Source: Verrucomicrobium sp. BvORR034 | Lineage (GTDB): Bacteria; Verrucomicrobiota; Verrucomicrobiia; Verrucomicrobiales; Verrucomicrobiaceae | Direction of reading: 5' to 3' | Assembly: GCF_000739635.1 (NCBI RefSeq) | Contig: NZ_BATQ01000139.1 | Location: forward strand, 1-42,161 | DNA: 42,161 bases | Part shown: piece by piece, positions 13,786 through 33,247 of the stretch | How positions within the stretch are numbered: position 1 is the stretch's first letter | Layout: every line of letters begins with the position of its first letter | Notes under the pieces: generated by a model | Database searches by the model: none | What the model saw: the letters and a program-made list of their open reading frames with translations, nothing else | Told to the model about the DNA's origin: nothing | Program-made: the position numbers and the translations under genes

Positions 13786-15306
13786 ATGTCCTCCACCCCG
13801 CTTTTTCGCTCTCTTCTTAGTCTGTCGCTGACGCTAGGCCTGACGGGCATCTCGTTGCTTCCCGGAACCCTCTACGCCGCGGAGTTGCACATCGGCCACG
13901 CCACGGTGGACATCACCCCCGACCGGCCTGTGGCACTGGCGGGACAATTTAACACGAGGATCTCGACCAAAGCAGAGACGCCCATCGTAGCGGCAGCACT
14001 GGCCATGGAATCCAAGGAAGGCGACAAATCCGTGGACCAGGCACTGATTATCACCTGTGACCTGGTGGCAATTCGAGACGGCCTGCAAGACCGGCTTCGC
14101 ATGAGCCTGGCAGGCAAGCTGCCCGGACTGGACCTGAAGAAACTCCTTCTGAACGCGACCCATACGCACACAGCACCGTTGACGCTGGAACTTGAACGAA
14201 ACCCCAACCGATATGAAATCCCCAAAGAAGGGGTGATGCAGCCGAGTGAGTACACTGCCTTCTTGCTGACCCGGCTGGTGGAGGTTGCAGAGCAGGCCTG
14301 GAAGAACCGCCAACCCGGTGGAGTAAGCTGGACGCTCGGTCATGCCGTAGTGGGTCAGAATCGCCGCGCAGTGTATGCCGATGGACGTGCACAGATGTAT
14401 GGCAACACGAATGACGCCCGGTTCCGTGGCCTGGAGGGAGGCGAAGACCACGGCGTGGAAATGCTCTTCTTCTGGAATGCTAAACAGGAACTGCAGGCAC
14501 TGGCGGTGAATCTGGCCTGCCCCGCACAGGAAGTGGAGAGCCGCAAAGCGATCAATGCCGACTTCTGGCACGAGACCCGGGAGCAGTTGCGCAAAGAGCT
14601 GAAGGCACCGAACCTTACCATCCTGGGCTGGATCAGTGCCGCCGGAGATCAGAGCCCGCATTTGATGTTCCGCAAAAAGGCGGAAGAGCGCATGCGCAAG
14701 CTGCGCGGACTGACAAGCAAAGAGGAGATCGCACGGCGAGTGACTGCCGCAGTGATGGACACCGTGGAGATTGCACGCAAGGAAATAACCCCCAGCCCAC
14801 CCTTCACGCATCAGGTGGAGACACTCTCCCTGCCCCCGCGGCGCATCCTGCCGCGGGAGAAGGAACAAGCCCAAATGCAGATCACGCAGTACGAGAACAT
14901 GGGGACCTTGAACAACTACCTGCTGAACATGCTGGAGAGAGAGCGTGAGGTAGTGCGACGGGCTGAGGCCGGCGACAAGGCGCCAAACTACGAGATGGAA
15001 CTGCACACCCTCCGCCTGGGTGAAGTGGCAATCGCGACGAATCCGTTTGAACTGTATTTGAACTACGGCATCCAGATGAAGTCCCGCAGTCCAGCGCTGC
15101 AGACGTTTTTGATCCAACTGGCCTGTGGCTCAGGACTGTACCTGCCCACGCCCGAGGCCATTGAAGGCGGCAGCTACAGCGGACTGCCTCACACGAACAA
15201 GGTCGGCCCCGAGGGCGGCCAGATCCTGGTGGACCGCACGGTGGAAGCCATTCGCGGGATGTGGCCAGCTCCCGCGGCGGAGACTGGCGGCGCGAAGAAG
15301 GAGTAG
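13786..15306 (+). CDS. Secreted neutral/alkaline ceramidase-like protein
   Basis: A 506-residue exported protein. The signal peptide covers about residues 1-31 (SLLSLSLTLGLTGISLLPGTLYAA). The mature part starts like the ceramidase-like domain of the preceding protein (HIGHATVDITPDRPVALAGQF) and has the metal-site motif H126-T-H128 in NATHTHTAP, then a long catalytic-type domain with GWISAAGDQSPH and AIATNPFELYLNYG. Homologues in PVC bacteria are annotated as ceramidase-like, but sphingolipid hydrolysis is not established and the substrate is uncertain. It begins 47 bp after the giant fusion and is probably co-transcribed, so the two ceramidase-like domains may act together. Confidence 0.85.
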   Translation: MSSTPLFRSLLSLSLTLGLTGISLLPGTLYAAELHIGHATVDITPDRPVALAGQFNTRISTKAETPIVAAALAMESKEGDKSVDQALIITCDLVAIRDGLQDRLRMSLAGKLPGLDLKKLLLNATHTHTAPLTLELERNPNRYEIPKEGVMQPSEYTAFLLTRLVEVAEQAWKNRQPGGVSWTLGHAVVGQNRRAVYADGRAQMYGNTNDARFRGLEGGEDHGVEMLFFWNAKQELQALAVNLACPAQEVESRKAINADFWHETREQLRKELKAPNLTILGWISAAGDQSPHLMFRKKAEERMRKLRGLTSKEEIARRVTAAVMDTVEIARKEITPSPPFTHQVETLSLPPRRILPREKEQAQMQITQYENMGTLNNYLLNMLEREREVVRRAEAGDKAPNYEMELHTLRLGEVAIATNPFELYLNYGIQMKSRSPALQTFLIQLACGSGLYLPTPEAIEGGSYSGLPHTNKVGPEGGQILVDRTVEAIRGMWPAPAAETGGAKKE

Positions 15307-15346
15307 GTTGATTATTTCATCGGCACATTAAAGTACTGAAATCCAT

Positions 15347-15637
15347 ATGATTCGTCACACCGTCGTTTTTCGTTTGAAGCATGCCGCCGGTTCCGCAGAG
15401 GAACAGGCCTTTCTCCAGGCAGCCGGAGAGCTGGCCGCCATTCCCGGCGTGGAGAAGTTCGAGGCTCTGCGTCAAGTGAGCCCGAAGAATCCCTACACCT
15501 TCGGCCTGTCCATGGAGTTCGCCAATGCCGCGGCCTACGCAGGATACAATGACCACCCCGAGCACGTGCGTTTTGTGCAGGAGCGGTGGCTGCAAGAAGT
15601 CGCGGAGTTTATGGAGATTGACTACGAGAAGGCGTAG
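15347..15637 (+). CDS. Dabb (stress-responsive alpha-beta barrel) domain protein
   Basis: A 96-residue protein with the whole Dabb fold: IRHTVVFRLKH at the start, a central AAIPGVEKFEALRQVSPK, YTFGLSMEF, and the end DHPEHVRFVQERWLQEVAEFMEIDYE. Dabb proteins form dimeric ferredoxin-like barrels. Some are oxygenases or cyclases, most have no known activity. They are common beside sugar-oxidation genes in PVC genomes. It is 40 bp after the ceramidase-like gene and is the last gene of the plus-strand cluster. A composite repeat element begins 5 bp after its stop. Confidence 0.88.
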   Translation: MIRHTVVFRLKHAAGSAEEQAFLQAAGELAAIPGVEKFEALRQVSPKNPYTFGLSMEFANAAAYAGYNDHPEHVRFVQERWLQEVAEFMEIDYEKA

Positions 15638-15642
15638 GGAAT

Positions 15643-15961
15643 GCGAAAAGTAGTGCCAGGCTTTAGTCTGGCGACGTGTGACGCGAGCAGCCTGACTGAA
15701 CAGGCTGAAGCCCATAGAACCTGCTGGCGAAAGCGACGTCAAGCCGCCAGCACTCCAAGACGCTGCCACGAACCGAGGGGGCCCAAGCCCGGAGATCGTC
15801 ACCTCCAGCGCGAAGCGTCTTGGAGTGCGTGTGGCTCGACACCGCTTTGGCGGATCTTGTGAGCACCTCGAACCTGAGCCGCCGAGCAGCGGAATTGACC
15901 GCAGCAGCCGTCAACAGCTTGACTGAACAGCCCCGCATGCGGGACTGTGCCTACTTTACGC
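15643..15961. repeat. Composite REP-like element, 319 bp, with short terminal inverted repeats
   Basis: The ends are GCGAAAAGTAG (15643-15653) and CTACTTTACGC (15951-15961), inverted repeats matching at 10 of 11 positions. Each end shows the foot GTAG followed inward by a hairpin: GCCAG..CTGGC at the left, and CCCGCATGCGGG near 15937 at the right. Inside lies a head-to-head pair of GGAG-foot units: 15724-15765 on the minus strand and 15810-15853 on the plus strand, sharing GCGTCTTGGAGTGC and a GGCGG..CGCTTT..CGCC hairpin. The word TGACTGAACAG occurs twice. No coding frame is credible. It fills the gap between the Dabb gene and argF. Confidence 0.72.
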
Positions 15962-15984
15962 CACAGACCTGTCGAGACCCCGAC

Positions 15985-16041
15985 TTATCCCTCTTCCCTT
16001 TCCCCTTTTCCCCCTCCCTCCCTTACCCCTCTCCCCCCACC
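15985..16041. repeat. Pyrimidine tract running into the 3' end of argF
   Basis: A nearly pure C/T tract on the plus strand containing the words CTCTTCCCTTTCCCC and CCCTTACCCCTCTCCCC. Similar tracts precede the SDR start (5400-5433) and, on the minus strand, argB (19325-19365). Read on the minus strand it encodes the last residues of argF (VGGEG) and its TAA stop. Confidence 0.6.
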
Positions 16042-16928
16042 ATCCAGCAGATAATCGCCTTCTGCACATGCAGGCGGTTCTCCGCCTCGTGGAAGATCAC
16101 GTCAGCGTGTTGCTCAAGGACTTCGTCAGTGATCTCCTTCTCACGATAGGCCGGGAGGCAGTGCATGACGATGGCGTCCTTGGCAGCGTGCTGCATGAGA
16201 CCGGCGTTGATCTGGTAGGGCTTGAGGATCTCAATGCGCTGGGCGCTTTCCTCTTCTTTGCCCATGCTCACCCAGACGTCGGTGTACACCACGTCGGCAC
16301 CGGCAACGGCCTTGGCGGGGTCTGCCTCAAGCACGACCTTGTCGGTGCCGAGTTTTTCCATGAACACCGCCGGGGGCTGAAAAGCCTTGGGCGCGCCAAT
16401 GGTGAGATCAAAGCCAAGACGGGCAGCGGCCCACATCCAGGAGCGGGCCACGTTACAGTCGCCATCACCCAGGAAGCAGACTTTCTTCCCCAGCCAGCCT
16501 CCGAGGCGCTCGTGCATGACCTGGAGGTCGGCCAGGATCTGGCACGGATGCTCCTCGTCGGTGAGAGCGTTGATGGTGGGCAAATGACTGTACTCAGCGA
16601 ACTGCTCCACATCCGCCTGGGCGTAGGTACGAATGACCGCCCCATGCACCATGCGACCGAGGACACGGGCAGTGTCCTTGACAGGCTCGCCACGGCCAAG
16701 CTGGGTATCAGCACCACTGAGGAACATGACGCTGCCACCGAGCTCGCGGATGCCTACCTCAAAGCTGACGCGGGTGCGGGTGGAGGACTTGTTGAAAATG
16801 AGAGCCCACGTCTGACCGGTCAGCACCTGGGGAGTGGCGGCGCGGTTCTTGCGAAGGTCGGCACCGAGCTCGACGATGGCTGTGATCTCCTGAGCAGTAA
16901 GAGCCTCGATGGACAACAGGTTCTTCAT
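16023..16928 (-). CDS. argF: Ornithine carbamoyltransferase
   Basis: A 301-residue enzyme forming citrulline from ornithine and carbamoyl phosphate in the cytoplasm. The carbamoyl-phosphate loop is S49-T50-R51-T52-R53 and the ornithine-site HCLP is at 256-259 (MHCLPAYREKEIT). The segment DVWVSMGKEEES is the family's SMG ornithine-binding motif, and DEEHPCQILADL is also typical. The start is the ATG at 16928; an upstream in-frame extension lacks family similarity. It is the last gene of the minus-strand arginine set, 74 bp downstream of argD. Its C-terminal codons and stop lie inside a pyrimidine repeat tract. Confidence 0.96.
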   Translation of the reverse strand: MKNLLSIEALTAQEITAIVELGADLRKNRAATPQVLTGQTWALIFNKSSTRTRVSFEVGIRELGGSVMFLSGADTQLGRGEPVKDTARVLGRMVHGAVIRTYAQADVEQFAEYSHLPTINALTDEEHPCQILADLQVMHERLGGWLGKKVCFLGDGDCNVARSWMWAAARLGFDLTIGAPKAFQPPAVFMEKLGTDKVVLEADPAKAVAGADVVYTDVWVSMGKEEESAQRIEILKPYQINAGLMQHAAKDAIVMHCLPAYREKEITDEVLEQHADVIFHEAENRLHVQKAIICWMVGGEG

Positions 16929-17002
16929 GGGACGATGTGGGCTGAAAAAGGTGAAAGGAATTCGGAGCGGGAGTGCGGACACATTCCGCTCCGAAGCAGG
17001 AT

Positions 17003-32922: not shown

Positions 32923-33247
32923 ACGAGGCATCCAGCGTCGCAGGATATAGGAGGAGCCTCGATGAATCGAGCACCTCATAGGCCGGCGAAACGGCATCAA
33001 GCCCCCGTACTCCAAGACGCTTCGCGAGGTATGGACAAGTTGGTTTGGACAGGCGCGCAGAGTTGTTTGGACGAGTTTCGGAAAGGCCTGCGCAAGCGCA
33101 CGACAGTGTCTTGGAGTGCTGGCGGATCGACGCCGCTTTCGCCTGCTGGCAGAAGGGCGCAACTGAGGGAAGGCGTTGCCAGCAGGTTCGAGGAAGCTGG
33201 GGAGGAGAGAACGCAACGATGCAGCATCCTCAGCCGCGCAGGACTCC
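32923..33247. repeat. Gap holding a head-to-head GGAG-foot REP-like doublet (32995-33028 and 33106-33143)
   Basis: The minus-strand unit at 32995-33028 and the plus-strand unit at 33106-33143 share GTCTTGGAGT and the following hairpin region, and face each other across 77 bp. The arrangement matches the inner pair of the composite element at 15643-15961. The gap separates the convergent phosphatase-like gene and dxr. Confidence 0.72.

Follow-up and report, generated by a model that had tools for sequence, protein, structure and literature searches.

The window, a stretch of 42,161 nucleotides from Verrucomicrobium sp. BvORR034, contains a gap between two convergent genes, encoding a Dabb-domain protein and an ornithine/aspartate carbamoyltransferase of the argF type, in which short repeats with GTAG and GGAG feet follow one another (Table 1). 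The left portion is a GTAG-foot REPIN (F1) that reads AAAGTAGT, hairpin, spacer, GACTGA and the start of a right hairpin, and stops before its right foot. A pair of GGAG-foot REPs (F2, 15723-15855) comes next between the two named genes. In the L-type unit the hairpin lies to the left of the foot, which appears as CTCC, while in the R-type unit a mini-hairpin (CGC-GAA-GCG) precedes the foot and a bulged hairpin follows it. An extension of the R-type unit, TTGTGAGCACCTCGAACCT, is common to several R-type copies and occurs in a related form at the RAYT-flanking copy L267 (all read by eye). The right portion is a separate GTAG-foot half-element with a different stem, composed of AAAGTAGGC, ACAGTCCCGCATGCGGGGCTGT and TCAGTC, which has one partial relative in its own genome (C63:37360-37392). 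The initial annotation described the gap ends as inverted, each a GTAG foot with a hairpin, enclosing a GGAG-foot pair, and was accurate in both respects: the ends GCGAAAAGTAG and CTACTTTACGC correspond at 10 of 11 inverted positions, a hairpin lies 3' of each GTAG on its own strand, and nhmmer places the two inner units, whose 38-nt arms are 82% complementary. Its view that the gap is not random is likewise borne out by folding, none of 100 dinucleotide shuffles of the 319-base strand folding as well (z -6.7 as RNA, -4.9 as DNA). Rfam at gathering scores returned a tRNA elsewhere in the window and nothing at the gap, near which three weak matches all fell far under their cut-offs.

Table 1. 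Positions of the genes and repeat features discussed (window coordinates unless a locus is named)
Feature	Position	Strand	Details
Dabb-domain gene, left neighbour	15347..15637	+	Pfam PF07876, 3.5e-19
Gap between the convergent Dabb and argF-type genes	15638-16022		
F1, GTAG-foot REPIN	15643..15712	+	without right foot
Left gap end, GCGAAAAGTAG	15643-15653		
GTAG foot with hairpin, left	15650-15672		hairpin 15655-15672
Right half of F1	15694-15712		GACTGA 15694-15699; hairpin start 15700-15712; ends before foot
F2, GGAG-foot REP, L type	15723..15766	-	nhmmer 48.3 bits; copy is a model seed; foot CTCC 15753-15756
Spacer of the tail-tail F2 pair	15767..15808		42 bp; outside both common lengths (53-58, 71-77)
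F2, GGAG-foot REP, R type	15809..15855	+	nhmmer 51.7 bits; copy is a model seed; mini-hairpin 15809-15817; foot GGAG 15822-15825
R-type extension TTGTGAGCACCTCGAACCT	15857..15875	+	read by eye
GTAG-foot half-element, different stem	15921..15961	-	
GTAG foot with hairpin, right (reversed)	15927-15954		hairpin 15927-15948
Right gap end, CTACTTTACGC	15951-15961		
argF-type carbamoyltransferase gene, right neighbour, convergent	16023..16982	-	Pfam PF00185, PF02729
Second F2 tail-tail pair in the window	32982..33147		
GGAGCGGCGGTTTGTGCTTGCACAACCGCCG hairpins at L038	1035-1070, 1865-1900, 2065-2100		
Tandem-repeat place in G003 (L089 = G003:C1:2606900-2610300)	about 1000-2350, reversed		

The gap had been read as one 319-bp element with shared borders. 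As a whole it matched only itself in its own genome, in a search that scored 40 out of 117 first-look candidates, and a single element is not confirmed; the inner part recurs many times and the outer part several times. At E<=0.01 there were at least 88 matches to the gap, with 85 falling within the inner pair (counting overlapping matches on both strands), one self-match and two touching the GTAG parts. The GTAG part as query gave 12 matches in the own genome including the window's own, two others being near full length (L077, L078). F1 possesses a right half of its own, and the two outer GTAG ends are parts of two different half-elements.

F2 is a dispersed family. At least 57 units at 38 loci (bits >= 20) were found in the own genome, probably a lower bound because 40 of the 117 first-look candidates were scored, and a search of both relatives together, with 40 first-look candidates scored for each, gave at least 104 matches in the sister species Verrucomicrobium sp. 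BvORR106 (G002; contig NZ_BATR01000096.1) against at least 81 in G003, which we take to be V. spinosum. The units are REPs in the wide sense, short palindromes present in many dispersed copies and paired. Their foot is GGAG, not GT[AG]G, in 132 of 133 listed units, a listing that accepted only GGAGT, GGATT, GGGAT and GGACT among matches to the F2 model and misplaced at least one unit (L294:793). Pairs with a gap of at most 300 in the three genomes, orthologs counted apart, comprise 41 tail-tail, 31 foot-outward and 2 same-direction arrangements. Among tail-tail pairs two ranges of gap length recur, 53-58 (12) and 71-77 (17), and neither includes the 42 of the window or the 43 of its ortholog. 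Foot-outward gaps concentrate at 96-119 (22/31). Both hairpins of the unit show compensatory change. With the main-hairpin register fixed, so that shorter units are misaligned, and against shuffles that ignore the relatedness of units, main-hairpin pair 5 is the most variable and still pairs in 126 of 132 units (CG 55, TA 47, GC 21; reached by 0/1000 shuffles). Pair 1 also keeps its pairing relative to the shuffles and pair 6 does so weakly (15/1000 reach), while pairs 2, 3 and 4 do not exceed them (124, 992 and 405 of 1000 reach). All three mini-hairpin pairs are retained as well, pair 2 as GC 100, AT 18 and CG 9 of 132 units (0/1000 shuffles), in a register chosen per unit for best pairing, which itself favours pairing.

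Up to 26 of the 38 own loci have F2 at the matching place in G002 or G003, an upper estimate because some flanks may be repeats themselves. Two loci were followed, and neither gave a clean empty site. At the first (G003:C1:5785174 compared with L157 3708-3865 of G002), G003 keeps both outer ends of a tail-tail pair and lacks 125 bp between its GCCGC repeats, probably an internal deletion at GCCGC microhomology; at the second, match coordinates show partial loss in the own genome. F2 also forms tandem arrays with a period of about 270-350 bp (G002 C205:13097-13714, G002 C155:36342-36815, G003 C1:8072345-8073097), and at C183:38130 the own genome seems, to judge by match coordinates, to have fewer units in its array than G002. 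A third repeat, F3 (GTAGTTGWCGACGTGAGGAG), accompanies F2 at L030 1260-1690, L004 1323-1690, L114, L159, L286 and other loci. In 14 of the 17 pairs where the two are linked, F3 stands at a nearly constant 111-123 bp from the hairpin of F2, and the linker is conserved in part. At L030 and L004 two inverted F3 copies enclose F2, a nested-looking mosaic elsewhere in the own genome.

The HYH-type RAYT group is flanked by GGA[GC]T-foot repeats. In G014 a RAYT sits between inverted F2-like repeats. It stands at the Pfam PF01797 cut-off of 23 (23.6 and 22.9 bits), and its protein as query finds a match at E<=1e-5 in 36 of 57 genomes, the own genome included. Similarly, F2-like copies flank the RAYT of G013 (38-40 bits, plus one at 28.5). 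The closer group comprises 27 loci, one per genome, which were counted by foot motif only. GGA[GC]TGC feet, a motif chosen after some of the loci had been viewed, lie on both sides of the gene at 25, on one side at one and on neither at one. The 41 other Y1 loci used for comparison average 0.07 such feet, none having 4 or more, and the two distant group members L263 and L264 have 0 and 2. The outermost foot points outward upstream at 20/27 and downstream at 18/27 loci. All four loci with exactly one foot per side are foot-outward and enclose the gene, and the commonest plan (6/27) places one foot-outward pair before the RAYT gene and another after it. The proteins carry NHYH, mostly WH and mostly Y[VT]HxN[PA], with N48, H49, Y50, H51 and Y114 invariant over 20 members. 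Every one of the 20 aligned members matches NCBIfam NF047646 (REP-associated tyrosine transposase) at E<=0.01 (88.8 bits for member 1, cut-off 80), and the group profile finds E. coli TnpA-REP (PDB 4er8) at E 3.5e-11. A single clean clade was rejected for the group: the distant relatives L263 and L264 are placed within it, so that the tree needs two changes, and a single change suffices in 6% of 200 bootstrap trees. Rejected too was a 5' mini-hairpin general to the RAYT group (stem >=4 in 23% of 95 feet, 11% in shuffles), and it is therefore claimed for F2-like units only.

The refuting conditions named in the initial annotation give a mixed outcome: among the matches scored the whole unit has no second copy, but its parts recur, and RAYT-like genes are present in the own genome. 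One HYH-group member there has a broken frame (C26), and two RAYT pieces at the contig ends of C65 and C64 may be one gene. G002 has only distant members of the group, the best at 40%. Next to the group's RAYTs in the own genome and G003 are related repeats with stems other than that of F2, those in the own genome being of the same plan. The F2 consensus itself was absent at the Y1 loci found with PF01797, 13 in the own genome and 50 from G002, G003, G004 and G014 (two chance 9-mers). Another GGAG-tagged repeat, a GGAGCGGCGGTTTGTGCTTGCACAACCGCCG hairpin, brackets a different RAYT-like gene of the own genome (locus L038, C35), and repeats of the AAAGGAGGCGGGG type were seen by eye in several loci. 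G003:C1 holds an expanded set of Y1 proteins at about a dozen places (e.g. 3936605, 4066157, 7449062), with frames of about 355-390 aa, several domain matches split in two and some copies close together.

The spacing of F3 and its partly conserved linker would also fit F2 being one component of a longer, fixed mosaic repeat, spread by other means such as recombination or a different transposase, with its RAYT link only ancestral. The excess of tail-tail over foot-outward pairs and the preferred spacers point the same way. The window, however, has no F3 match at up to 4 substitutions, and next to RAYTs it is the foot-outward order that is commoner, so that we consider this explanation unlikely.

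F1 belongs to the GTAG type. A complete copy measures about 80 bp and reads AAAGTAGT, hairpin, spacer, GACTGA, hairpin, ACTACTTT (L077, L078). This outward-foot inverted pair is seen at both loci and in G002, whereas the right foot is gone from the copy in the window. A RAYT of G003 (L198) carries on each side a REPIN of the AAAGTAGT...ACTACTTT type, with the F1 plan and another stem, one of them having ATGTAGT in place of AAGTAGT. RAYTs at 39-46% identity occur in the own and G002 genomes, and one of these, L039, adjoins a GTAG repeat of another stem.

The order of the two families is displayed by the sister species. The orthologous G002 gap contains an entire F1 with its two feet and, after 40-odd bp of intervening sequence, a complete GGAG pair; both F2 units of the window have orthologs there, and 49 aligned bp of G002, the right foot of F1 among them, are missing from the window. 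The right GTAG half-element of the window was not seen in this G002 gap. Since F1 is whole in G002 and F2 lies beyond it, the elements are neighbours, and the nested look of the window results from the lost foot and the extra half-element. The initial annotation had proposed a nested arrangement of two families of REP/REPIN-RAYT type. The type and the meeting of the two families stand, and the nesting does not. Insertion of F2 into an F1 REPIN that was thereby split would account for the inverted outer GTAG ends, and the 16-bp direct repeat CAGCYTGACTGAACAG on either side of F2 (15688-15703, 15915-15930) is readable as a target duplication. Nevertheless the left half already contains the beginning of a right hairpin and the right half has another stem, F2 in G002 lies past the right foot of an intact F1, and GACTGAACAG recurs in F1 right halves elsewhere, so the direct repeat needs no insertion; true nesting is highly improbable. 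The comparison with relatives that had been suggested found the orthologous gap occupied side by side, and not empty. G003 was rejected as an empty site for the locus: it has no match to 15267-16001 of the window, and the Dabb gene is therefore absent there too. By eye, G003 has at the Dabb/gap place a unit of roughly 470 bp, containing GGTTGGAGTACCGCTTTT / AAAAGCGGTACTCCAACC repeats, that occurs about three times in tandem. That the gap holds nothing but immobile transcription-end structures of the two genes is scarcely credible, because convergent orientation and strong folding are what it explains, whereas the sequences belong to dispersed families not limited to this locus and a terminator scan stayed near chance (1 found, 0.5 expected).

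The gap very probably holds a small group of remnants from two REP families that were dispersed by RAYTs and came to lie side by side between convergent genes. The family memberships, the copies elsewhere, the side-by-side order in the sister and the GGA[GC]T-foot repeats on the flanks of the HYH-type RAYTs are observed. On this reading F1 is an outward-foot GTAG REPIN from which a deletion in the window's lineage has removed the right foot, F2 is represented by one L and one R unit with feet inward, and a third, GTAG-foot half-element completes the cluster at the right. By analogy with TnpA-REP, HYH-type RAYTs may have cut and moved F2 as single-stranded DNA, GGA[GC]T presumably acting as the guide foot in place of GT[AG]G. 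In this genus the F2 family looks old and would now be mostly immobile, as many copies occupy matching places in the sisters and the close RAYT is missing or broken. More broadly, the chances seem evenly balanced that the HYH RAYTs of Verrucomicrobiota and their REPs exchanged GT[AG]G for GGA[GC]T as the guide, each RAYT copy with its own stem variant, and that the Verrucomicrobium repeats persist in high number, mostly feet-inward and with set spacers, after loss or damage of their partner gene. Such a RAYT branch, with its different foot and with natural variants beside each gene, would allow the guide model to be tested, proteins against feet, and the many F2 copies with no close partner gene would provide a case for how long REPs last without a RAYT.

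According to PMC8266576, RAYTs such as TnpA-REP recognise foot and hairpin on one strand and cut nearby, the foot tetranucleotide being thought to guide cutting by the RAYT protein. GT[AG]G is the usual REP foot, and the exceptions given in the accessible parts of PMC3733652 and PMC6006769 are not GGA[GC]T; a full-text literature search, with supplements outside its scope and with sources partly accessible, found no GGAG-foot REP, a weak negative. O. terrae, a verrucomicrobium, is reported in PMC3733652 to be rich in GTAG repeats. F1 resembles REPINs and GTAG REPs with a RAYT (TnpA-REP; REPtron) in its GTAG foot, its hairpin and its inverted pair of about 80 bp, and its plan is shared with the REPINs that flank a G003 RAYT on either side. 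F2 shares with REPIN/RAYT systems a foot with a bulged hairpin, pairs, tandem clusters and a RAYT partner group, but differs from GT[AG]G REPs in its GGAG foot (group motif GGA[GC]T) and in the small hairpin just 5' of the foot in many units. Inward feet, opposed L and R unit types and clusters also liken it to TT REP dimers and E. coli BIMEs, from which it is separated by foot and phylum; TT dimers outnumber foot-outward ones in GTAG families 1, 3, 19 and 24 according to PMC3733652. In PMC6006769, TnpA-Y1 subclass 2.8 has NHYH, W[YH] and the tyrosine motif YIHYNP, is associated with GT[AG]G REPs and was found in that sample in Cyanobacteria. The HYH group is like it by motif only (NHYH, W[YH]/WH and the tyrosine motif) and unlike it in having GGA[GC]T feet and belonging to Verrucomicrobiota. 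TIRYT/TIRtron (PMC3733652) and subclass 2.6 / class 3 (PMC6006769) are comparable as RAYT-like genes flanked by non-GTAG repeats, but the motifs reported for them, GGGGWSAS, no consensus and CnGA, are not those of the HYH group. REPs, tail-tail dimers, mixed clusters and RAYTs are thus already known, and what would be new is a RAYT-type dispersal with a GGA[GC]T foot.
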